Positions 680 through 31,776 of a stretch of 31,776 nt of DNA are shown here, piece by piece. The stretch lies in the IMG/VR virus record IMGVR_UViG_3300028829_005800, positions 1 to 31,776 of that record. One strand, 5' to 3'. Positions within the stretch are counted from its first letter, which is position 1. Every line of letters begins with the position of its first letter. Origin of the DNA: a virus. The notes below the pieces were generated by a model. It ran no database searches, was not told where the DNA came from, and saw only the letters and a program-made list of their open reading frames with translations. The position numbers and the translations under genes are program-made.

Positions 680-1912
680 TTATCCCTGTTTTTTAGGGGT
701 TTTCTTGCGTCTTCTCTTTTTCTTCCCGCTTGTGTTTTTGGGAATGTTACCGCTTTTGTGACTAGGTTCAGTATTGCTACCCACGGCGGCCCATAATGTG
801 GCGCTGGTTTCTCGGGCATTTCCTACCAGGTAATATTTTTCGGTCGTCTGGATGGAGGCGTGGCGCATCATTTCCATCAATAGGCGGCTGTTAACGCGCG
901 GGGCCCATCGGGTACCAAACGCGCGGCGTAAATCATGGGCGGCCGCGAATATCTTTTTTTCCTCCTGGCGGCCCTTCTTATTGAGTACCATTTTTACATC
1001 GGTAATAATGCCGGCCTCGGATCCGATTTTACAAATCACCTTACTGATACTATCCAGGCGCGGCGGCGTTACCCGGATCCCCTCAAACCGCGGGCGGAAT
1101 ACCAGGCCGGTGGCCGGTGGTTCCTCGGGTAACATCATTTCGAATTCAGGGGCCACCGCCATAAATCTATCGGTGTTTCCTTTCTCGGCTTCCTGCTCGA
1201 TTTTAAAATAATAATGGCCCTGGTCTTTCACTAAACAGAACGGGCCATATTGCCAGGTTAGTTTCAGGGCTTCCCCCAGGCGCAAACCACCCCACCAGAG
1301 GCCCCGCAAAAAATACCGGAAACTCTCGGCGCATTCCTCCCCCACCACCTCGGGGGTTACTTTTATCATGCGGTCGAATTCTTCCCCGGTAATGGGCCGG
1401 CCCTTCATCACGCGGGCCCCTTTCGCGCGCTTGGGTAAATTGATCGCGGGAACGGCCTTGATTAAATCCTGAGAATGGGCCCATTTCAGGGCGGCCCGGA
1501 TATATGCCAGGTTTCCTTTGATGGTTTGTTCCGAACGGCCCTGGGCCCGCTTGTGGGCCTGGTATGCGGTTAACTGAGGGGCCCGTAATGTGGCCAGGCT
1601 TTTGATATTGATTACCTGGGCCAAATCATCCAAGACATAATTATATTTTCGGCGGGTGGTCTCGGCCAGGCTTGGTAAATGCTCTTGTTCCAATCGATAC
1701 CGGAATTGTGACCAGGTAACCCCCCGGGTGGGGGTATGGTTTCCATGGTTTAATTTTTCTTCCAGTTTACCGGCGTAAATATCGGCGGCCCGTTCGTTGG
1801 CGGTTCCCGTGGTTTCGGTTTTGGTTTTCCCGGTAATGGGATCCACCCACCGGCATTGGTAATGCGGTAATTTTTTCTGTTTGATTACTTTTACATTGTA
1901 TTCATTATCCAT
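680..1912 (-). CDS. int: Tyrosine site-specific recombinase (integrase)
   Basis: This 410-residue protein has the full tyrosine recombinase signature. Arm/core-binding regions occupy roughly residues 1-165 and the catalytic domain roughly 170-365. Arg211 lies in GGLRLGEAL, a probable Lys244 on the beta turn, His326-x-x-Arg329 in HDLRR, His351 in MMRHAS, and the nucleophilic Tyr360 in TTEKYYL. It would cut and rejoin attP (629-673) with a host tRNA-Thr gene. The stop codon lies seven bases from the attP core. The C-terminal tail after about residue 375 is lysine- and arginine-rich and its DNA carries one GAATGTTACCG repeat (742-752), so coding and recombination-site functions overlap. The start is ATG at 1912, overlapping the upstream excisionase-like gene by eight bases, so the two are probably co-translated. 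Confidence 0.95.
   Translation of the reverse strand: MDNEYNVKVIKQKKLPHYQCRWVDPITGKTKTETTGTANERAADIYAGKLEEKLNHGNHTPTRGVTWSQFRYRLEQEHLPSLAETTRRKYNYVLDDLAQVINIKSLATLRAPQLTAYQAHKRAQGRSEQTIKGNLAYIRAALKWAHSQDLIKAVPAINLPKRAKGARVMKGRPITGEEFDRMIKVTPEVVGEECAESFRYFLRGLWWGGLRLGEALKLTWQYGPFCLVKDQGHYYFKIEQEAEKGNTDRFMAVAPEFEMMLPEEPPATGLVFRPRFEGIRVTPPRLDSISKVICKIGSEAGIITDVKMVLNKKGRQEEKKIFAAAHDLRRAFGTRWAPRVNSRLLMEMMRHASIQTTEKYYLVGNARETSATLWAAVGSNTEPSHKSGNIPKNTSGKKKRRRKKTPKKQG
742..782. repeat. Right-side copy of the 41-bp attP arm element, inside int
   Basis: Bases 742-782 align without gaps to 434-474. GAATGTTACCG is exact at the start, a second exact block AGGTTCAGTA follows, and about 32 of 41 positions match by eye. 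One copy lies to the left of the tRNA core and one to the right, within the codons for the integrase C-terminal tail. This supports arm-site function for the integrase and shows selection on DNA as well as protein in this stretch. Confidence 0.6.
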
Positions 1913-2171
1913 TTCGAGCGCTTTCTTCCTGGATGATTCGGATTATTTCGGATCCGTGGCAAAAATAACTGTAACCCAGTTTTTCAATTCCCTTATTGGT
2001 GTAATTCTTCTTGATATGATCGGCCCATGTGGCCGGCATCCCCAAATCTGATACGGCCTGTTCAAATGGGTAATAAATGCCTGGGGATATCCCCGAGGGT
2101 ATTAAAAGTGAATTTTCTCTATTTCCTATTGACGTATCGCCACTAGAATGGCTATTGTGTTGGTTATCCAT
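1905..2171 (-). CDS. Small DNA-binding protein, probable excisionase/recombination directionality factor
   Basis: This 88-residue protein lies directly upstream of the integrase and overlaps it by eight bases, the usual place for an excisionase. Its second half, with WADHIKKNYTNKGIEKLGY followed by a C-terminal helix SEIIRIIQEE, resembles the winged-helix/MerR-like small adaptor or excisionase fold, in which a helix-turn-helix reads DNA and the C-terminus contacts integrase. The first 30 residues look disordered and are rich in Ser, Asn and His. The ATG at 2171 is preceded by AGGA with eight bases of spacing. Family membership is judged from size, context and pattern only. A transcriptional repressor is the alternative. 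Confidence 0.55.
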   Translation of the reverse strand: MDNQHNSHSSGDTSIGNRENSLLIPSGISPGIYYPFEQAVSDLGMPATWADHIKKNYTNKGIEKLGYSYFCHGSEIIRIIQEESARNG

Positions 2172-2223
2172 TTAATAAATCCTGTACGGGGATTTGATTT
2201 GATTGTGATTAAACCAATAACGG

Positions 2224-2258
2224 CCCGGGTTGAATGTCAGTTCTTCCCGGGTTTTTTT
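2224..2258 (+). terminator. Possible plus-strand terminator or operator pair
   Basis: CCCGGG at 2224-2229 can pair with CCCGGG at 2246-2251, followed by seven T residues (2252-2258) on the plus strand. The 16-base loop is large for a terminator. Read on the minus strand the same bases are two direct AACCCGGG copies 22 bases apart upstream of the excisionase-like gene, which would equally suit an operator. Confidence 0.3.
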
Positions 2259-2324
2259 GGTCAATCAGGTAAACGCAATTTATCCGTAATGCGTTTGGGG
2301 AAGGGGCGGCCCGCGGCCACTTTG

Positions 2325-2355
2325 AAAAAATACCGGTTTTGTTGGATTTACCGGT
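2325..2355 (-). terminator. Weak minus-strand terminator
   Basis: On the minus strand ACCGGT (2350-2355) pairs with ACCGGT (2332-2337) across a 12-base loop and is followed by a T-rich run (2325-2330). It would end transcripts coming from the tail operon before the integration genes. The six-base stem and long loop make it weak. Confidence 0.3.
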
Positions 2356-2499
2356 GGGGGTGGCGGGGCAGAATATAGAACACGGCATTGTGAGAAATGC
2401 CGATGGAGCTTAATAGCGGCCATCCTGGTTCCTAGCTTCAATAGGAATCGATGGGCGTTAGAAACACTGTGATAGTTGACGCTATCACCTTGAATCGGG

Positions 2500-2526
2500 G
2501 GGAGGTCTTCGGGCCTCCCTTTTTTT
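2500..2526 (+). terminator. Intrinsic terminator with UUCG tetraloop
   Basis: On the plus strand GGGAGGTC (2500-2507), the tetraloop TTCG (2508-2511) and GGCCTCCC (2512-2519) form an eight-pair stem, one pair a G-U wobble. Seven T residues follow (2520-2526). The T tract is only on the plus strand, so it terminates plus-strand transcription, opposite to all protein genes. It marks the 3' end of the candidate RNA. Confidence 0.85.
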
Positions 2527-2535
2527 ATGCGCCCG

Positions 2536-2732
2536 TCAATGTGTAAACCGTAACTTGTTTTTCTTTGGGGGGAAATACAAATACTGACCATATGGGGCAA
2601 TTTCTTTTAAATAACCCCGCGGCCACTGTTTTGGTTTCAGGCGGTCATCGGCCCAAATATCAAAAATAACAATGTAAAACCGGTGGGGGTGTCTAATAGT
2701 TCGGCCACTTTAAACATGTAATAAATCATCAT
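2536..2732 (-). pseudogene. Small gene interrupted by a frameshift
   Basis: From ATG at 2732, preceded by GAGG ten bases upstream, the frame encodes MMIYYMFKVAELLDTPTGF and then runs into a stop at 2637-2639. The minus-one frame is open from about 2711 and encodes FDIWADDRLKPKQWPRGYLK and further charged and aromatic sequence to a TGA at 2536-2538. Neither half looks complete. Joined in the homopolymer stretch CCCCCACCGGTTTT (about 2678-2691) they give one protein of about 65 residues. This could be a sequencing or assembly indel, a real mutation, or a programmed -1 shift (CCC-CCC or TTT-TTT slippage is possible). The function is unknown. It is the last minus-strand gene before the plus-strand RNA. 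Confidence 0.5.
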
Positions 2733-2861
2733 ATTTTTCGATCCTCATTTAATATTTCAATGTATAGTTATACTAATGTGGCCACCGGATCGGTTTTGGT
2801 AACCGGGCGGTGGCAAATCCTTCCCACTCCCCTCATTTATTCGATATTCGGTGGGGCGTAG

Positions 2862-3593
2862 TTAAAAAAACATCTCATTATCAATGCGTTCTATTTCGGC
2901 TTGTAACCGCATCCCATCTTCCAGGCCGGCGGCCCTCGAATCGGCCATAATCATATCACACAAATGATTATAGGAATCTTCCGTGGGGTATCGGTGGCCC
3001 CCGTGGATCCCCTGGGCATCCAGGGCGGCTTTAATCTCGGCGTATTGTTCCCGACTCATACCCCAATCAATATTCCAATACATCATCCGGGACGATGGGA
3101 GGCCCATTTTTTCCCACCACTGGCGGCATTGGGGTTGATAAAATATAAATTTCAGTTTTGGGAATCGGTTTAATAATTTCAATATTACTTTATTCCGCTT
3201 TTCGGCCCATCGTTCCACCGCGCGGGGGTTCCATTTGCTATCGAATAAAAAATACCACCCGGCCGATACTTTTCTAAAATCATCCCCCTGTATGCTGGCC
3301 ACATCAATATCGATAATTTGGGTGGCGAATACGCAATACATCAATTGACATTCATTTTCATACAATTCCAAAAGGGCCGGCAAATTATCGGCGCGGGTTT
3401 CGATGGATGAATGGTGGCCGTGGAAGTCTGTAAAACAAAACCGGGCGGCTATATCTTCCCGAAAAAATAAAACATTCTCGGCGTTAAAATCCGGGTGTAC
3501 CCGCTTGATATAGGAATGGCTGTTTTTGCTGTACCGTTCCTCCAATAACCGGTGAATATAACATACCCCCGTTAATAATATTTTATCCCCCAC
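2862..3593 (-). CDS. Hypothetical protein downstream of the glycosyltransferase
   Basis: This 243-residue protein matches no family I can name firmly. It starts at GTG (3591-3593), with AAGGGG nine bases upstream and four bases after the glycosyltransferase stop, so it is translated as the next cistron. The opening KILLTGVCYIHRLLEERY has the beta strand-turn-helix look of SGNH hydrolases or the WcbI-type polysaccharide enzymes, but the expected catalytic blocks are not clear. Tryptophan and aromatic content is high between residues 90 and 180, with a basic FPKLKFIFYQPQCRQWW block. By position it may act on the glycan made or transferred by the neighbour, or be a tail-tip accessory. No signal peptide or membrane segment is present. 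Confidence 0.7.
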   Translation of the reverse strand: MGDKILLTGVCYIHRLLEERYSKNSHSYIKRVHPDFNAENVLFFREDIAARFCFTDFHGHHSSIETRADNLPALLELYENECQLMYCVFATQIIDIDVASIQGDDFRKVSAGWYFLFDSKWNPRAVERWAEKRNKVILKLLNRFPKLKFIFYQPQCRQWWEKMGLPSSRMMYWNIDWGMSREQYAEIKAALDAQGIHGGHRYPTEDSYNHLCDMIMADSRAAGLEDGMRLQAEIERIDNEMFF

Positions 3594-3597
3594 GGTT

Positions 3598-5427
3598 TCA
3601 TCCCCTTATTATTACCAGTTCTTTATCATTCCGGTGGCGGGCCAGGCCCCCGATATCATGGTTAAAACCATTCCCCACCTGGGCGGCTTTGAGCTTGCGT
3701 TTTATTTCGTCCCGCATTTCTGAACCATGGCCGGTGGTAACCTGATCGTTAGATAATGAGGGGCCATGTAAACGGCGGTGGGCCAGTATTTCATCGATGG
3801 CGGCCGCGCGGGCCCCGGATCTAATGGCCCGTTCATAATATTCGGAATCGGCACCGGCCACCCATGGGGCCATCCCGTTTGTTTTTTCATAGATTGATTT
3901 ACTTATCAAGGCGGTGGAATTAACAATGTTACCACTTGGGCTTCCAAATCGTTTAATACCCGAATAATGATAGGGTTTAGCGCTGAGCGCTTTTCTCATG
4001 CGCGGGTTTTTATCGCTGTACGTGGTAAACTGCTCCATGGCCCCACCCACAATATCAAACCCGCGGGCCATCACTTCAAATGATTTATATAATCGCATTG
4101 GGGTACTTAAATCGTCGGAATCCTGGTTGGCAAAATGATCGTATTTCAAATGATCGAATACCCGGTTTAATGAGACGTAAGGCCCCACGGGCCCATCGAT
4201 ATTCCGATAAAGCAATACATTATCCAGGCGGTTAAATTCTTCCCCCACCGGATCCGGGCCGGCCATCCCATCATTGATTAAATGAACCAATACCCCGACA
4301 AAATTCTGATTCAATACCGATTTAATCGAATCGGCCAGGTATTCATAATTCGGGCCGTTGTAAGGTATCACCACATCGGCCCAATATTGGCGGCGGTGGG
4401 CCGATGGATGTACCGGGGCGGTTACCTTGACCACCTGCAATCCAGGGGCGGGGGGATCCACCAGGGCGGGGGCGGCGGTATTTTTCAGGGTGGCGCTTAT
4501 CCCCGGCCGCGGGCCCCTCGGGCGGCGGGTGCGGGCCTGGAAATATTCTTTAATGGCGGCGTGTAATTCGGGTTTGGCGGTGGCCCATGCACATAACCCG
4601 GCGGGATCCGTTTTTATGTCGGTATCTTTATCGAATTGGTGGCGGGTTAATATGGCTTCCCTGGTTGACCACTGGCGGGCCTTTAAGGGGCCATGGTCCA
4701 AATGGGTTACCGCACCACTTACATGGCCCACCCGGGAATCCTTGGGCCAGGAATTGATTAAACCCCAATCACCACCCCCCACAATGTATCCACCTGGGAA
4801 TCCCCCCGCGGGCATATCTTCCAGGCGGGCGGCCCATGCTCCACCGGGCATCCCTCGGTTTTTCGATACGGCCCACCCGGGGCGGGTTTCTTCAATTAAA
4901 CCGGTGGGGCCCTGGTATTCCACCGCGTCAAACAATTGAACAAAATAATATTGTTCCAGGGCCTTGGCGGCTTCCTGGTACCACCGCGGATTTTTAAAGA
5001 GTAAATCCGCATCAATCCAGGCCACCGCATCCACTGAGGCCCCCAGGGCCTTTAATGCAATATTGAGTAAATATTCTTTTTGCCACATCAAATGGTGGGC
5101 CGGATCCCCTTTTACCTGGATGGCCGCGGGGTTATGGAATTCCCCATTAAAAGACAATTCCACCACCTGGGCGGGCTGGCCCAAATCGGCCAGGAATCGG
5201 CGGTAATTCTCAAATAACCGCGGATCATTCAGGGGGTTAAAATAACAGGATATCACGGCCATGTTTTTTACCGGGGTGGCGTTGGGTGGTTTCTCGTTAC
5301 CCCATCCCGGGCAAGTGGCGCGCGTTCTGATTACTTTCTGGTATTCCTCGGCGTGGGCCTGGCAATAATAATTACGGCGGCGGGGGCATACCTGGCATTT
5401 TTGGCGCTTGGTTTTGTGGTCCATCAT
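3598..5427 (-). CDS. Two-domain glycosyltransferase with N-terminal cysteine cluster
   Basis: This 609-residue protein has three parts. Residues 1-45 carry C11xxC14, C22 and C39, a likely zinc-binding or structural cysteine cluster. Residues about 53-300 form a glycosyltransferase-like domain with WIDADLLF (DxD at 139-141) for metal-sugar nucleotide binding. Residues about 348-600 form a second, GT2/GT-A-like domain, opening with DVVIPYNGPNYEYLADSIKS and carrying NQDSDD at 434-439. The protein would transfer sugars onto a protein or glycan acceptor. It overlaps the upstream gene by ATGA and lies at the distal end of the tail module, so modification of the virion adhesins or of the host surface is likely. 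Phage glycosyltransferases usually modify DNA or host O-antigen. Two transferase folds in one tail-operon protein is less usual. Confidence 0.8.
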   Translation of the reverse strand: MMDHKTKRQKCQVCPRRRNYYCQAHAEEYQKVIRTRATCPGWGNEKPPNATPVKNMAVISCYFNPLNDPRLFENYRRFLADLGQPAQVVELSFNGEFHNPAAIQVKGDPAHHLMWQKEYLLNIALKALGASVDAVAWIDADLLFKNPRWYQEAAKALEQYYFVQLFDAVEYQGPTGLIEETRPGWAVSKNRGMPGGAWAARLEDMPAGGFPGGYIVGGGDWGLINSWPKDSRVGHVSGAVTHLDHGPLKARQWSTREAILTRHQFDKDTDIKTDPAGLCAWATAKPELHAAIKEYFQARTRRPRGPRPGISATLKNTAAPALVDPPAPGLQVVKVTAPVHPSAHRRQYWADVVIPYNGPNYEYLADSIKSVLNQNFVGVLVHLINDGMAGPDPVGEEFNRLDNVLLYRNIDGPVGPYVSLNRVFDHLKYDHFANQDSDDLSTPMRLYKSFEVMARGFDIVGGAMEQFTTYSDKNPRMRKALSAKPYHYSGIKRFGSPSGNIVNSTALISKSIYEKTNGMAPWVAGADSEYYERAIRSGARAAAIDEILAHRRLHGPSLSNDQVTTGHGSEMRDEIKRKLKAAQVGNGFNHDIGGLARHRNDKELVIIRG

Positions 5428-22834: not shown

Positions 22835-24462
22835 TTGCTGGCCCCCGGTGCGGTTTCATCTTCTCGGCGGCGGGCCAGTAACCGGCCGGCCAGGTATAAA
22901 CCCAATCCCACGGGCCCCCCGGTAAATAGCGAATTGATAGCGCCGGGAATCGCGGCCGCGGGGCCGGTGTCGGGTAATTTATCTTGCATTACCTCCAGTA
23001 CCCTGGCGGCTATCGTTCCTTTAATGGTTTTGGTTTCCTCTTTTGTTTCTTCCACGGTTTTGGCCAGGGCGGCCGTTTGCTCCCCCTGGGCGGCCACCTG
23101 GGCGGCGGTCTGTTTTTTAAACTCATTTTCCCCCGCGGCCACCTGATCGATTTTGGCCTGCAATCCATCCAGGGCGGCTTTTTGTGCGGCGGTGGCATTT
23201 AACAGGGTTTTTTGTTCGGGCGTTAAATCGGCCCGAATCTTGAGTACCGCGGCCGATATGCGCGCATCAATTACGGCCTGCAAATTATCCATATTCGCAG
23301 AAATGGCCTGGTTAATCTTCACCTGGGCCCGGTCATCGATGGCGGCGTTAATCGTCTGTAATTGGCCCGGGTTTAAATCGCGGTGGGGGTTCGGTCTGTT
23401 CTGGGCTCCCCCTCCCACCTGGCCAAAATAACCAATACCCACCCCCTGGGCCACTTGTACGGCCTGGGGTTTTGTTTTCTGGTATTCGGCAATTACCTCG
23501 GCGGCGGTACGGTATCCATCCAGGCGGCCCACCCGCTTTCCGTTACGATACAATAGAAATACCGGAATTCCATTTACGGCCACCGGGCTATCGGTTCGGG
23601 AAATGATTTTTACTTTTATCCCCTTCCGTTTCAGAATGGGAACGGTTTTAATCTTGGCGTTTATGCAATGCGGGCAATCGGGGCCGGTTACCAGTCTGAT
23701 TTCCAGGCTATCGGTTAAAACCCGATGGGCGTTATATGCGGCGGTATAGGCGGCCTCCTGATCTTTAAAACCATAGTGGGTTTTAAATGCGGTGTCCCAA
23801 TCCCGGCCGTTTTTAAAATAGGTTTCCAGGAATGCAATAAATTCGCGTTTCCCTTTTTGGTCCACCAGGTATTCCACCAGGTAAAACCCCTGGGCATACA
23901 TCACGGCCACCGCGCGGCCCTCGGTGGGGTACTCGGTCATTTTCAATAATTGGCGGATGGGTATTTGCTCGGTGGTTCCCACCACCTGGGCGGCCGTTAA
24001 TCGAATGCGTTTTTTTTCGGCCGCATCTTCCACATATGTGGCGGCCCCCTCATCGGCCCATCGGGGAATTGATCGGCGGTAATGGCTGGCAAAAATCGTA
24101 TGTAATACCTCATGTGGTAAAACCGTGGTTACCACCTTTTCGGGGGTTCCCTGGATGATCATTCCCCAATCATAAACGTGGCCATTTTTAAAATTGAATG
24201 AAGTAATACCGCCGGCCCCCAGGGCCCCGGTTTTTACCTGTATGGGGCATGGCGCGGCCCACTTGGGTAATTCGGCCCCGATCCATTCCCGGGCATGTTG
24301 GGCCCGGTGGTACTCGGCCGCATCCCCCACGGTTTGGGCCAGGGCCGCGGTTTCGGCGTTTACGGTAAAATTCGGGGTGGCATACTCGGCGGCATCCCCG
24401 GCCGCGCATAACAAAAGGGGCATCATTAATAATAAATATTTCATGGGCGGCGGCCTTTTCAT
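22831..24462 (-). CDS. Secreted metallopeptidase-thioredoxin fusion with C-terminal membrane anchor
   Basis: This 543-residue protein has four parts. A signal peptide (MKYLLLMMPLLLCAAG, within residues 7-22) directs export. A peptidase_MA-like metallopeptidase follows, with HEVLH at 117-121 and the third ligand Glu138 in RWADEGAA. A thioredoxin-like domain (about 254-330) has CPHC at 263-266 and the cis-proline loop GIP at 298-300. A long Ala/Gln/Lys coiled coil (about 370-500) precedes a hydrophobic segment (GAINSLFTGGPVGLGLYLAG, about 507-526) ending in RRRED. It would sit in the envelope with catalytic domains outside the cytoplasm. ATG 24462 overlaps the lipase stop by ATGA. ATG 24444, with AAAGG upstream, would also give the signal peptide. 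The role is probably envelope disruption, with the coiled coil and anchor acting like a spanin, or virion egress. Confidence 0.8.
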   Translation of the reverse strand: MKRPPPMKYLLLMMPLLLCAAGDAAEYATPNFTVNAETAALAQTVGDAAEYHRAQHAREWIGAELPKWAAPCPIQVKTGALGAGGITSFNFKNGHVYDWGMIIQGTPEKVVTTVLPHEVLHTIFASHYRRSIPRWADEGAATYVEDAAEKKRIRLTAAQVVGTTEQIPIRQLLKMTEYPTEGRAVAVMYAQGFYLVEYLVDQKGKREFIAFLETYFKNGRDWDTAFKTHYGFKDQEAAYTAAYNAHRVLTDSLEIRLVTGPDCPHCINAKIKTVPILKRKGIKVKIISRTDSPVAVNGIPVFLLYRNGKRVGRLDGYRTAAEVIAEYQKTKPQAVQVAQGVGIGYFGQVGGGAQNRPNPHRDLNPGQLQTINAAIDDRAQVKINQAISANMDNLQAVIDARISAAVLKIRADLTPEQKTLLNATAAQKAALDGLQAKIDQVAAGENEFKKQTAAQVAAQGEQTAALAKTVEETKEETKTIKGTIAARVLEVMQDKLPDTGPAAAIPGAINSLFTGGPVGLGLYLAGRLLARRREDETAPGASK

Positions 24463-25202
24463 AAATTGCGCTGGCAAGCGCTGAGGTAAAGAAAAACGGC
24501 ATGATCAATGCGTTTTGATTGTGCCCACTTCCATGGGCGCAGAAACAAAAGGGGCAAGCGCTCGATAATTACCTGGTAAGGCGTCATTTTTGCGGATCGG
24601 CGTTGGCCCCTTGTACTAAAATAAACCAGGTTTCCCGAATGGCGATAACCGGCCAGGAATGGCGGCAATAGCGGGATCCCATCGTGGCCGTTTACGTGGC
24701 GGAAATAGCGGGCCCCGAATGCGGCCAGTGTGTATTTTTGGAATTCGGCATTACCAATACGGGGGGATCCGAACGTATAAACGGCCTGGATACCGTGGCC
24801 CGTGGCGTACAATTCGGCGGCCGCAATCACCGCGGCGGCGGCCCCCAGGCTATGGCCCGTTAATACCAGGGGTTTATTACCCCATAATTGTATCTTGTTA
24901 ATAATCTTGGGAAGGGCGGCCCGGGTATACTCCAAAAATCCCCGGTGGATGGATCCATGGCCGGCCCATTCCATACGGGCTTTTAAATCGGTGGGAATGT
25001 CCTCGTATTGAGTACCACGAAAAACGATCATTATTGAATCGGGCCGGTTTAATAAAACGGCCTGGGTGTTCTCCACATCGATAAAATAGGCGTGGCTATC
25101 CAGGCCGGCCAGGGCCGCGGCGTTTGGGCTGTATACTTTGGCGGAATATTCGGCGCATTCCAGGGCCAGGGCGGCATCGTAGGCGGCGGGTACCTCATTC
25201 AT
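24459..25202 (-). CDS. Class 3 lipase (alpha/beta hydrolase)
   Basis: This 247-residue protein is a class 3 (fungal-type) lipase. It has FRGT (61-64) for the oxyanion region, the nucleophile elbow GHSLG with Ser118, Asp174 in HVNGHDGIPLLPP, and His188 in GYRHSG, so the catalytic triad is complete. It hydrolyses acyl esters of lipids. No signal peptide is visible, so it would act from the cytoplasmic face, reach the envelope after membrane failure, or be carried in the virion. It is coupled by ATGA to an N-terminal-anchored membrane protein upstream and to the metallopeptidase fusion downstream. This strongly suggests a lysis or envelope-disruption cassette. Phage lipases or esterases are known but usually accompany an endolysin, which I do not find here. 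Confidence 0.9.
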   Translation of the reverse strand: MNEVPAAYDAALALECAEYSAKVYSPNAAALAGLDSHAYFIDVENTQAVLLNRPDSIMIVFRGTQYEDIPTDLKARMEWAGHGSIHRGFLEYTRAALPKIINKIQLWGNKPLVLTGHSLGAAAAVIAAAELYATGHGIQAVYTFGSPRIGNAEFQKYTLAAFGARYFRHVNGHDGIPLLPPFLAGYRHSGNLVYFSTRGQRRSAKMTPYQVIIERLPLLFLRPWKWAQSKRIDHAVFLYLSACQRNL

Positions 25203-25486
25203 GGGCGGCCCTTTTTAATGGTCTGTATTGCGTGGCTATGATCATCCAGGCGGCGGGCGTGGTCATTTAATCGGGTGGCATTCTGGAACCCGATGGTTTG
25301 ATTATCTTTTACATCGATTTTCATTTCTTCGTATGATCGACGTATAAACTCGGTGGCGGTGGCGGTGCGGGCGGTATTGTCCTGCACCGCAAACATCCAG
25401 GCCAGTAAACCGCCGGTGGTTCCCAGGCCCGCGGTAATCAATGCCACAATAATTCCGGCCAGGGTTAATCGGTTTTGTACTTTCAT
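25199..25486 (-). CDS. Small single-span membrane protein, holin candidate
   Basis: This 95-residue protein has one long hydrophobic segment near the N-terminus (LTLAGIIVALITAGLGTTGGLLAWMFAV, roughly residues 7-34), followed by a charged, partly helical tail with two RL-NDHARRLDDH-like blocks. It is the first gene after the late promoter and terminator and is coupled to the lipase by ATGA, the usual place for a holin or membrane lysis factor. The ATG at 25486 is preceded by GAGGA, with 12 bases of spacing. Those 12 bases, AATAGATAACCC, are the arm of a long inverted repeat that could mask initiation. A Rz-like or signal-anchor protein is the alternative. Confidence 0.6.
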   Translation of the reverse strand: MKVQNRLTLAGIIVALITAGLGTTGGLLAWMFAVQDNTARTATATEFIRRSYEEMKIDVKDNQTIGFQNATRLNDHARRLDDHSHAIQTIKKGRP

Positions 25487-25597
25487 GGGTTATCTATTTC
25501 CTCGGGGTTTTCACCCGCGCATAAAAAAATCCGGTGGTATTCCTCGGGGCCGGTGGGGCCTCTTGAAATACCGCCGGATTTATCCAATAGATAACCC
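25487..25597 (-). promoter_or_regulatory. Inverted 12-base arms enclosing the late terminator
   Basis: GGGTTATCTATT (25487-25498) and its perfect complement AATAGATAACCC (25586-25597) bracket the intrinsic terminator. In the mRNA the downstream arm ends exactly at the start codon of the first lysis gene, so pairing of the arms would occlude the initiation site if polymerase reads through the terminator. This is an attenuator-like layout. Confidence 0.65.
25523..25581 (-). terminator. Intrinsic terminator before the lysis genes
   Basis: On the minus strand AAATCCGGCGGTATT (25567-25581) pairs with AATACCACCGGATTT (25527-25541), 14 of 15 positions, around a GC-rich 25-base apical region, and is followed by seven U residues (25523-25529). 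It lies about 50 bases downstream of the predicted late transcription start and just before the first late gene, so read-through must be controlled. Confidence 0.8.
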
Positions 25598-25638
25598 TGA
25601 TTTACAATTAAGCAAACCGCGTGCGGTTGGTCGGGTTT

Positions 25639-25666
25639 ATTTTAGTTTATTGTATTCATTCGTCAA
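25639..25666 (-). promoter_or_regulatory. Strong late promoter candidate
   Basis: On the minus strand TTGACG (25661-25666, 5 of 6) is followed by a 16-base AT-rich spacer and TAAAAT (25639-25644, 5 of 6). The predicted start is near 25632. The leader begins with the hairpin AACCGC-AC-GCGGTT and then enters the terminator. This is the best sigma70-like promoter seen in the window and would drive the lysis, head and tail genes. Confidence 0.7.
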
Positions 25667-25939
25667 TAGTGCTTGATGGCCTGGCGGGCGGCCGGGATCC
25701 TGGCCAATTGATTTTTTGCTTTATCAATTGCGGCCCTGTATCGCTAGTGTTCCACCAGGCGGGGGCCGATTCCCCCGCCGGCATCCTGATTACATAGGAT
25801 CGTTCCACCTCCCAAACATCCCGGCGCGTGGCGCTCGTACCCTCTTTTTAAAATAGGTGTTTAATGGTTTCACCCCACGGGGCCCGTTCCACTTCCCGGT
25901 TTTATCGGCTTGTGGCGCTCGGGCCCTCCTATCGGGGTT
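25667..25939 (-). other. Gene-free structured region upstream of the late promoter
   Basis: No convincing gene lies in these 273 bases. Hairpins include CAATTGAT/ATCAATTG (25705-25730) and GGCGGGGG/CCCCCGCC (25758-25779). An AGGAT/ATCCT stem lies near 25783-25799. Two imperfect copies of a 48-base element occupy 25797-25844 and 25880-25928, 84 bases apart. Each copy has CGAGCGCCAC then GTGGAACG, so CCAC can pair with GTGG. The outer GGGCCC/GGGCCC of one copy is replaced by GGGT/ATCC in the other, as expected for a conserved RNA stem. One frame through the repeats is open for about 40 codons but lacks a credible start. Confidence 0.5.
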
Positions 25940-26329
25940 TTACGTTGTAATATGCTCGGTGGTTAATAGTTCAACCATTGCGGGCTTCAATTTTGAATCG
26001 TCGGTTAAATGATCATTAAAAAAATCGGCTACTAATTCCCTACTTGATTTTATAATCTTTTCCACAAAATCGGAATAATTCATACCTTTGATTTTTATCG
26101 GTTTTTTACCTTCTAGGCCCTTTCTAAAATTGTTTTCCAAATTGGCGGTTATTGAATTGATATCAATAGAACCACCCCAGGTATTACCGTGTTTAATCAA
26201 ATATTTTAGTATCTGCGGTAAAATATATCTGTACGATGGATGGCCATTTATTATGGGCCAGGTGTATTGAAAATCGTATTCATCGAATGAAAATACTTTT
26301 AATTCGTACACATCGGCGGGGCTTGTCAT
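25940..26329 (-). CDS. Hypothetical protein, last early gene
   Basis: This 129-residue protein matches no family I know. Its DNA is more AT-rich than its neighbours, with many AAA, ATT and AAT codons, suggesting a different origin. It opens MTSPADVYELKVFSFDEYDF, has a lysine-rich middle (NNFRKGLEGKKPIKIKGMNY) and an acidic, helical C-terminus. The ATG at 26329 overlaps the upstream stop as ATGA. It is the last gene before the late promoter. In lambda that position is held by the antiterminator Q, so a late-gene activator or antiterminator is a positional guess. No DNA-binding motif is clear. Confidence 0.65.
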   Translation of the reverse strand: MTSPADVYELKVFSFDEYDFQYTWPIINGHPSYRYILPQILKYLIKHGNTWGGSIDINSITANLENNFRKGLEGKKPIKIKGMNYSDFVEKIIKSSRELVADFFNDHLTDDSKLKPAMVELLTTEHITT

Positions 26330-26535
26330 TGGTTCCCATCCTGATTATCTAAGGGCCGGCGGGATATATTCACCTTGCGGCCATTATAAAAGGCTTCCAG
26401 GCGGCGGCGCTTGCGGCCCTTGTGTTTTATTTTCTTCCATTTTAATAATACTTCCACCTCTTTATCAATGGCCTCGTAGGGTACGTCGATAAATACCCCC
26501 TGGCCAGGCTGTACCACAAATGATGGGTTACCCAT
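26326..26535 (-). CDS. Small basic protein, possibly a diverged CsrA-like fold
   Basis: This 69-residue protein begins MGNPSFVVQPGQGVFIDVPY and ends in a strongly basic half (KWKKIKHKGRKRRRLEAFYN and GRKVNISRRPL). The order of strands, G-x-G-VFID, then EVEVLLKW, then RRRLEAFY, then KVNISRRP, recalls the five-strand plan of CsrA (IxIGDD, IxVTVL, VRLGI, VSVHREEI) with a basic insertion, but similarity is weak. A nucleic-acid-binding role is likely from charge. The ATG at 26535 has AAAGGA seven bases upstream, and the leader contains a copy of the repeated palindrome. It is coupled by ATGA to the next gene. Confidence 0.6.
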   Translation of the reverse strand: MGNPSFVVQPGQGVFIDVPYEAIDKEVEVLLKWKKIKHKGRKRRRLEAFYNGRKVNISRRPLDNQDGNQ

Positions 26536-28485: not shown

Positions 28486-29657
28486 ACCTGGGCGGCCCTT
28501 TCTTCTCGGGTTCTGAGGGGTGGAAAATCTAAATGCTTAATAGCCAGGCGGGCCCATTCCTCATCGGCCTGGGTTATCTTCTGCTCGAATGGCTGGTTAA
28601 ATTTATCCTTGATGGTTCTATCTAACAGGCTGGAAAATAGGCCCGTTTTATTGGTCGATTTTTTGGCCCGGGAACAATAGTGGGCCAGGGCGAAAAGATT
28701 AAGGCGGCCGAATTCGTTACCCTCTAAAATGAATCCCTGATCAATGGCCACCAGGTATAATTCTTGAATGGCCACCGGGTTTCTTAAATCCTCATCTCTG
28801 ATACTACGGCCCCATCGTATTTTTCTGATCCCAGGGGGCGGGTTTGTTTCCTGATCACCGGGCCCCACCTCCAATAATTCAAAATCATTTTCTAAATCTA
28901 CATGTACATGTTTTTGTAGGGTGTAATTTTTTAAATGGTTGGGGTTCCTATGTTTTGTAGTATGTATATGTAGGGCCGAATTGGCGGGGGTTTGGCGGGG
29001 GTTTGGCGGGGGGTTCGTCAATGATGGCGCGGGTTTGGCGGGGGTTTCGGAAATAGTGGCGGGGGTTTCGGTTGGCGGTGGCGTGGGTTTGGCGGGGGTT
29101 GGTTCCACCAGGGCGGCCGGATCCACGGTGGCCGCGGTATACGGGCGCTTTGTAAATTTGGAAAGTAACCACCGGCCGGCCCTCTCAATTAAATGGAGTT
29201 TACCGCATTCATTACGCGGGTGGGCTTCAATAGCCAGGGCGGCCGGTGGTTGGTCGAATAACGGCAATGGATCCGGGGCCACCTGGGCGGCCTCGGGGGT
29301 GGGGTCCGGTTTGGATCCCTCTTTATAAATATCATGGGTTAAACCCGGGGCATCGAATACCATAATAATATCGATGGCGTAAATATTGGGCCGGCCGGTG
29401 GCCCGCTTTATATTTAATACCCCATACCGTGACAAATATTTTAAACGGCGTTCAATCGTGCGGGGCTTCAATCCTGACAAACTGGCTATTTCGTTTTTAC
29501 CCACCCCATGGGCGGGGGTATATGATCCGGTACCGGCGCATAATACGGCCAGGGCATACGCTATCCGTTTATCTGGATCCCGTAATGGGAGCGCAAAGCA
29601 TAGGGCCCGTAATTTATCATCATCTATTTTAAATAAGTGTTGTTGGCGCTTTCTCAT
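28482..29657 (-). CDS. Winged-helix replication initiator-type protein
   Basis: This 391-residue protein has an N-terminal winged helix (about residues 12-105: KRIAYALAVLCAGTG, VGKNEIASLSGLKPRTIERR, LKYLSRYGVLNIKR) of the kind used by phage and plasmid replication initiators such as lambda O. A Pro/Thr-rich linker (about 165-235) follows, rich in TPAKP-type repeats, and then a helical C-terminal domain (about 285-391). No helicase or polymerase is encoded, so it probably recruits host enzymes to the iteron origin at 147-226. The linker DNA is G-rich on the plus strand and repetitive. ATG 29657 overlaps the CsrA stop as ATGA. A general transcription regulator is the alternative. Confidence 0.65.
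   Translation of the reverse strand: MRKRQQHLFKIDDDKLRALCFALPLRDPDKRIAYALAVLCAGTGSYTPAHGVGKNEIASLSGLKPRTIERRLKYLSRYGVLNIKRATGRPNIYAIDIIMVFDAPGLTHDIYKEGSKPDPTPEAAQVAPDPLPLFDQPPAALAIEAHPRNECGKLHLIERAGRWLLSKFTKRPYTAATVDPAALVEPTPAKPTPPPTETPATISETPAKPAPSLTNPPPNPRQTPANSALHIHTTKHRNPNHLKNYTLQKHVHVDLENDFELLEVGPGDQETNPPPGIRKIRWGRSIRDEDLRNPVAIQELYLVAIDQGFILEGNEFGRLNLFALAHYCSRAKKSTNKTGLFSSLLDRTIKDKFNQPFEQKITQADEEWARLAIKHLDFPPLRTREERAAQV
28981..29062 (+). repeat. G-rich microsatellite in the replication protein linker
   Basis: On the plus strand GGCGGGGGTTT recurs several times between about 28983 and 29047, giving at least four G-runs with short loops, a G-quadruplex pattern opposite the coding strand. 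It encodes the Pro-rich linker and is prone to expansion or contraction. Confidence 0.6.
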
Positions 29658-29839
29658 TTGGTAGATTCCCCCAGGGCGGCTTCTTTTTGGGCCCGTTCGG
29701 TAATCTCCCGGCGGTTAATCTCCACCCCGGGCATATCAAACGAAATTCGTACCCGGCCATCCCTTACCCTTACAATGGTTAATGATCCCGCGCCCTCAAT
29801 ATCAATGGTTTCATTAATGCCTCTGGTTAAAACTAGCAT
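29654..29839 (-). CDS. csrA: Carbon storage regulator CsrA/RsmA homologue
   Basis: This 61-residue protein aligns across its length with CsrA. It starts MLVLTRGINETIDI (family MLxLTRxxGExIxI), continues SLTIVRVRDGRVRISFDMPG (family VTVLxxxGxQVRxGIxAP) and ends VEINRREI (family VSVHREEI). It keeps the Leu4 and the Arg corresponding to Arg44, which contact RNA. CsrA dimers bind GGA motifs in mRNA leaders and usually block translation. In the phage it may reprogramme host carbon metabolism or order phage gene expression. Its own leader has a palindrome with GGGA and a ribosome binding site CAAGGA, 12 bases before the ATG, both CsrA-type sites, so autoregulation is plausible. It is coupled by ATGA to the replication-type gene. 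Confidence 0.92.
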   Translation of the reverse strand: MLVLTRGINETIDIEGAGSLTIVRVRDGRVRISFDMPGVEINRREITERAQKEAALGESTK

Positions 29840-31454: not shown

Positions 31455-31661
31455 TTACCTGGCGTTCTTCCTGGTCATGGCTTCCCAAATGTCATTCGAT
31501 AAAACGTATTCCTTTTGGGCCAGGATTCTAATATGGTCGTTTAACCCCTCGCGTTTTAATTTATCAATGGCCTTTCGGCCCACCCCTAATTTTTTCTGGG
31601 CGGTGGCCACCTCGTAAATTTTATCCATCTCCAGGCCGGCGGCCTCGGTTGTTGTTTTCAT
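31455..31661 (-). CDS. Small helix-turn-helix protein, first early gene
   Basis: This 68-residue protein carries a helix-turn-helix of the excisionase/MerR-like small-protein type. YEVATAQKKLGVGRKAIDKLKREGLND-like text spans residues 16-42, then a wing (IRILAQKEYVLSNDIWEAMTRKN). It is the first gene after the early promoter and could repress that promoter or the GGTSACC cluster, acting as a lysogeny switch or as a second excisionase. The ATG at 31661 is preceded by GGTGG at close spacing. The gene starts in the terminal repeat and so crosses the circular junction. Confidence 0.65.
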   Translation of the reverse strand: MKTTTEAAGLEMDKIYEVATAQKKLGVGRKAIDKLKREGLNDHIRILAQKEYVLSNDIWEAMTRKNAR

Positions 31662-31776
31662 GTTCCACCATTTGATTAAGTAACTTCAATGATGAATATT
31701 TACCCGGGGTTCCCGGCGTGGTCAATGCGTTTTGGGCGGATCGTGTACCGCGGCCCTGGGGCCCAAAATTGAATGT
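31633..31776. repeat. Terminal direct repeat, right copy
   Basis: This is identical to bases 1-144 (see that entry). It contains the second copy of the early promoter at 31697-31725. Confidence 0.95.

Follow-up and report, generated by a model that had tools for sequence, protein, structure and literature searches.

The window (the whole stretch of DNA that was analysed) is the 31,776-base virus record IMGVR_UViG_3300028829_005800, from an uncultured phage. Because an exact 144-bp direct repeat occupies its two ends (positions 1-144 and 31633-31776), the record is probably a complete genome of approximately 31.6 kb, either circular or terminally redundant. The minus strand carries the identified genes, among them an integrase, a ParB-like protein, a lambda-type portal, a GpA-like terminase, and tail proteins. 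The closest relatives found for the terminase, at 54-55% identity, come from a single virus record (L004) and from two genomes that belong to the same family and were reached via the phylum of a Gemmatales genome, Planctomycetota; relatives at 34-44% identity occur in Planctomycetota, Verrucomicrobia, Victivallaceae, and Fibrobacter. The late operon begins with a small membrane protein (25199-25486) and a class 3 lipase, followed by the terminase, head, and tail genes, and its leader sits immediately upstream in a 453-nt noncoding gap (25487-25939). The features of the leader and of the first two genes are as follows:

25705-25730, minus strand: dyad CAATTGAT-N10-ATCAATTG, located ahead of the promoter; perfect stem of 8 bp (z -1.4)
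25639-25666, minus strand: sigma70-like promoter TTGACG-N16-TAAAAT, predicted start ~25632; weight-matrix rank 3; sigma70 may not be the host's
25586-25597, minus strand: 5' arm GGGTTATCTATT, perfect complement of 25487-25498, with no second exact copy in the window
25521-25582, minus strand: predicted intrinsic terminator, a long hairpin with an inner GGCC stem, then a run of seven U; -30.9 kcal/mol
25499-25520, minus strand: small hairpin GCGCGGGUGAAAACCCCG and Shine-Dalgarno-like GAGGA (25503-25499), between the terminator and the 3' arm
25487-25498, minus strand: 3' arm AATAGATAACCC, immediately preceding the AUG at 25486
25483-25587, minus strand: 34-codon ORF that opens with TTG where the 5' arm ends, spans the terminator, and closes with an AUGA overlapping the next start codon
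25199-25486, minus strand: first gene; its 95-aa product has a hydrophobic (membrane) segment at the N terminus and no family match
24459-25202, minus strand: second gene, a class 3 lipase (PF01764, E 7.7e-22), with an ATGA overlap with the first gene

By weight-matrix score, the promoter-like site at 25666-25639, which falls inside the noncoding gap, ranks third of all window positions on both strands; its score is 8.35, and the next best sites nearby reach at most 4.5. Simple counting of sigma70 consensus matches over 3 kb is at chance level (6 found vs. 5.7 expected). Approximately 50 nt past the predicted start begins a terminator-like hairpin, AAATCCGGCGGTATTTC...GAATACCACCGGATTT with a U-tract (stem ~25582-25527), which is the strongest terminator-like structure in the window on either strand. 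If transcription starts and stops as predicted, the terminated RNA would be approximately 108 nt long. Forbidding the terminator stem costs 31 kcal/mol (best leader fold -10.5 vs. -41.7 kcal/mol), and constrained folding recovered no competing antiterminator fold in the leader. An earlier note on this DNA had described a promoter, a terminator within about 50 bases of it, and complementary arms at 25487-25666; all of these elements are present, on the minus strand. The dyad upstream of the promoter may be a regulator site, a possible role that we infer from the sequence alone.

The two arms pair at 12 of 12 positions and enclose the terminator hairpin. Of the shuffles of the 453-nt gap, 0.74% contain perfect arms of 12 nt or more within 150 nt, and three such pairs are observed in the whole window vs. 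0.5 expected; the window's other perfect 12-nt arms sit inside genes, and none of those is at a start codon. Arms of at least 12 nt ending no more than 5 nt from a start codon are observed once, vs. 0.005 expected per window in shuffles. Extension of the helix beyond 12 bp into the coding region is not beyond chance, as 14% of shuffles reach it. A transposon-like element was also considered and rejected, the 12-bp inverted ends having no flanking target duplication by eye.

The read-through RNA is predicted to fold with the outer helix closed (z = -6.5 to -6.6), and a scan over transcript lengths places this closure at the point where the 3' arm has been transcribed; forbidding the outer helix costs 18.5 kcal/mol. 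When the 5' arm is present, the 12 nt before the AUG and the U and G of the AUG itself are predicted to be paired, and when it is absent the start region is predicted to be mostly open. The distal sequence (over 70 nt upstream, and including the 5' arm) raises the opening cost of this start site by 9.1 kcal/mol, the largest distal contribution among 37 start sites (the next is 5.7), although the total opening cost of 16.1 kcal/mol is only the seventh among 37 genes. The AGGA of the Shine-Dalgarno-like sequence, whose GAGGA lies 12 nt from the AUG, is predicted to be open in the same RNA. The earlier note had the second arm ending at the AUG and the start codon left paired after read-through; the arm does adjoin the AUG but stops at 25487, directly before it, and the pairing takes in only part of the codon and leaves the Shine-Dalgarno exposed. 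As a whole, that interpretation is partly supported, with the promoter, the terminator, and the start-masking arms backed by sequence statistics and thermodynamics. Its description of the first downstream gene as a lysis gene is not supported, since family profile searches returned no lysis-family match for the product. For the lipase that follows, the best phage matches are at 38% and lie in phages of Cylindrospermopsis.

Searches of phage records, viral contigs, and fetched loci recovered no relative of the leader. Neither tblastn nor blastn identified a similar leader in relatives across 120 loci, and the same arms were found nowhere else in viral contigs. One apparent match with 11-nt arms, in locus L092, reflected tandem hairpins after a gene together with a spurious ORF start; the scan that produced it passed over the window's own leader owing to crude gene calls and is not a fair survey. 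Downstream of a gene at 854-3136, the L092 region itself (3130-3320) contains three long hairpins in tandem, with arms of the GATTAGTTTTGTTTT type (z -7.6); these could be stacked terminators or a repeat element.

Because the leader offers no alternative antiterminator fold, switching by RNA alone is unlikely, and a protein (a processive antiterminator) or a translating ribosome would therefore be required. This agrees with the earlier note insofar as it called for an outside factor, given the 31 kcal/mol lost with the terminator stem; its other option, an RNA or ligand acting on the leader, finds no counterpart as a ligand riboswitch, with neither an alternative leader fold nor an Rfam match to a riboswitch or other known RNA family. 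Searches of Pfam, PHROGs, and NCBIfam with 36 proteins, not all of which were compared with every library, identified no antitermination family, Q and N included, though a phage antiterminator could be too diverged for detection by family searches. The product of 25940-26329, which had been put forward as the antiterminator, has no family match in these libraries and no sequence match in the PDB, has a pI of 6.1, and yields a structure model too poor to judge (pLDDT 51). For a basic 69-aa protein at 26326-26535 the model is fair (pLDDT 77), but the fold search with it returned nothing significant.

In overall logic, the closest system is Gifsy-1 IsrK, in which an intrinsic terminator ends a short RNA and the read-through mRNA is silenced when its leader pairs with a segment beyond that terminator (PMC4825925). 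The phage leader resembles it in the promoter, the predicted terminated short RNA, the predicted leader pairing past the terminator, and an ORF that ends in AUGA on the next start codon, as does the short Gifsy-1 ORF that is coupled to the next start codon in orf45-anrP (PMC4825925). However, IsrK relies on two folds of similar energy (PMC4825925), whereas the phage leader forms a simple 12-bp helix with no second fold near it in energy, as the 18.5 kcal/mol lost on forbidding the outer arms indicates. Other differences are that the downstream arm here lies right next to the main start codon, that the ORF begins ahead of the terminator, and that the short RNA, through the same pairing, would be able only to re-mask and not to activate. 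The leader has no match to IsrK or to any other family in Rfam.

In spacing, the leader matches Pseudomonas alpBCDE more closely than lambda. There, according to excerpts of PMC7969949 and PMC9371919, AlpA bypasses a terminator beginning 54 nt after the alpB start site, comparable with the approximately 50 nt seen here, likewise upstream of an operon. No AlpA-type antiterminator or -10-like pause element is established in the phage, however, and the same excerpts report no start-masking arms at alpB. At lambdoid late promoters, Q acts through a binding element, located between -35 and -10, and a pause element to bypass the terminator of the pR'-tR' arrangement (PMC6606751); neither element is established in the phage. 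The earlier note's comparison with that arrangement is apt in that a promoter and an intrinsic terminator, as read from sequence, precede the late operon, but the analogy is loose: the first 15 transcribed bases (GACCAACCGCACGCG), counted from the predicted start, show no -10-like pause element by eye (TTAATTG lies at ~+21), no Q-family protein was found, and the masking arms are additional. Masked starts are known for T4 genes e, soc, and 49, in which the initiation region of the late gene is paired in longer read-through mRNA, much as predicted here; in gene e, masking affects the long early transcripts, and mRNA from late promoters lying within the helix's 5' strand is unmasked (excerpts of PMC3014915). 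The gene e late promoter thus removes the 5' strand, whereas the phage promoter lies upstream of it, and the T4 excerpts describe no terminator inside the helix. The phage leader would work like parts of the IsrK, AlpA, Q, and T4 systems, with membership in any of them not established.

Taken together, these observations are best explained by a regulated 5' leader of the late operon, in which a promoter-terminator unit needing antitermination is combined with a translational lock on the read-through RNA; we hold this reading tentatively, at slightly less than an even chance. Polymerase would start at ~25632, make the ~108-nt leader, and stop at the intrinsic terminator, leaving the operon off by default. 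In any read-through mRNA, the 5' arm would pair with the 12 nt just before the AUG, and the outer helix, closing around the terminator hairpin, would hinder ribosome loading in vivo and keep leaky read-through silent. For full expression, some factor would then have to block termination and at the same time hold the arms apart; the candidates are a processive antiterminator or a ribosome translating across the leader.

Other arrangements could produce the same anatomy. The hairpin could instead be a boundary terminator that ends the upstream (ParB/25940) operon, with the arms silencing read-through and a phage-specific promoter, starting downstream of the 5' arm, driving the late operon. Such insulation has a precedent in the masked T4 genes e, soc, and 49 and in the unmasked mRNA from the gene e late promoters (excerpts of PMC3014915), and it accords with the predicted opening of the start site in the absence of the 5' arm. 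However, the weight-matrix scan identified no sigma70-like site between the 5' arm and the AUG, where nearby sites score no higher than 4.5 against 8.35, although a promoter of a phage-specific type may still lie there; nor would a plain boundary need a top-ranked promoter-like site just upstream of its terminator. We consider this reading unlikely, though worth keeping in view. A lower probability attaches to coupling through a leader peptide, in which a ribosome loaded at UUG 25587, with an AGGG Shine-Dalgarno at the 5' arm, would trail the polymerase, block the terminator, open the 3' arm, and reinitiate at the AUGA; the outer helix would then mask both starts. The 34-codon ORF does span the terminator, and its terminal AUGA overlaps the start codon; genes in this genome are often joined by such a 4-bp ATGA overlap, and Gifsy-1 orf45-anrP shows the same AUGA coupling (PMC4825925). 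Yet the codon signal of the ORF is no better than that of the neighbouring frame (0.205 vs. 0.203), its UUG lies just a few bases ahead of the terminator stem, and it has no homologue.

It is also improbable, somewhat more so than peptide coupling, that the outer arms are an inert chance pairing around a real promoter-terminator, with antitermination as the sole control. Perfect 12-nt arms do occur elsewhere in the window, inside genes, and both the helix extension past 12 bp and the total opening cost are unexceptional, but the shuffles place arms exactly at a start codon just 0.005 times per window. The phage genome also includes a gene for a CsrA homologue (29654-29839, minus strand, 61 aa; PF02599, E 7.7e-10), and this protein could in principle be the switch factor, binding the exposed GAGGA and other GGA motifs of the leader and so blocking or opening translation. 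CsrA sites can overlap a Shine-Dalgarno, and the AGGA is predicted to be single-stranded in the read-through RNA. Against this, the GGA density of the gap is ordinary for the strand (14 in 453 nt, a count reached by 12% of windows), and the gap contains no ANGGA site. We regard a CsrA switch as very improbable, and the same counts led us to reject a CsrB-like sponge in the gap.

The two-lock leader is favoured over these readings because the strongest terminator-like hairpin lies just after a top-ranked promoter-like site in the gap; because the arms abut the start codon, at 0.005 expected per window; because the distal opening contribution is the largest and the predicted pairing of the spacer and the UG depends on the arm; because forbidding the outer helix is costly (18.5 kcal/mol); and because each part has a tested precedent in AlpA, T4 gene e, or IsrK. 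It is weakened by the lack of a leader relative in the collections searched, by the lack of an antiterminator family among the 36 proteins scanned, and by an opening cost only seventh of 37 with an unpaired Shine-Dalgarno. A more speculative extension, which we offer as a long shot, is that one arm pair couples the two locks: the start-masking arm would also hold the ribosome site of the leader ORF, and one event, ribosome entry on the leader, would block termination, separate the paired arms, and pass the ribosome on to the first late gene, while the terminated RNA could also act in trans on stray read-through mRNA.

To our knowledge, late-gene control in Planctomycetota and related bacteria has been little studied. 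If the two-lock reading is true, this phage, whose terminase relatives lie in those groups, would be a compact case of a late operon locked in both transcription and translation by one leader, and would carry IsrK-like logic over to the front of a structural operon.

Upstream of the promoter, the gap also contains a tandem 44-nt repeat (25801-25844 and 25885-25928, minus strand) with copies 73% identical. CGAGCGCCAC and GTGGAACG are conserved within its 37-nt core, and the stems flanking the core differ between the copies yet are still able to pair; its appearance suggests that an RNA hairpin or binding site has been duplicated. The idea that it is a recurrent RNA motif was rejected: the pattern gave 49 matches in viral contigs, 0 of them with the window's 37-nt spacing, and most of the dominant class, with 39-nt spacing, is accounted for by one near-identical sequence that has no relation to the repeat. 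Elsewhere in the genome, downstream of the tail genes, a 609-aa protein (3598-5427, minus strand) contains a family 2 glycosyltransferase domain.
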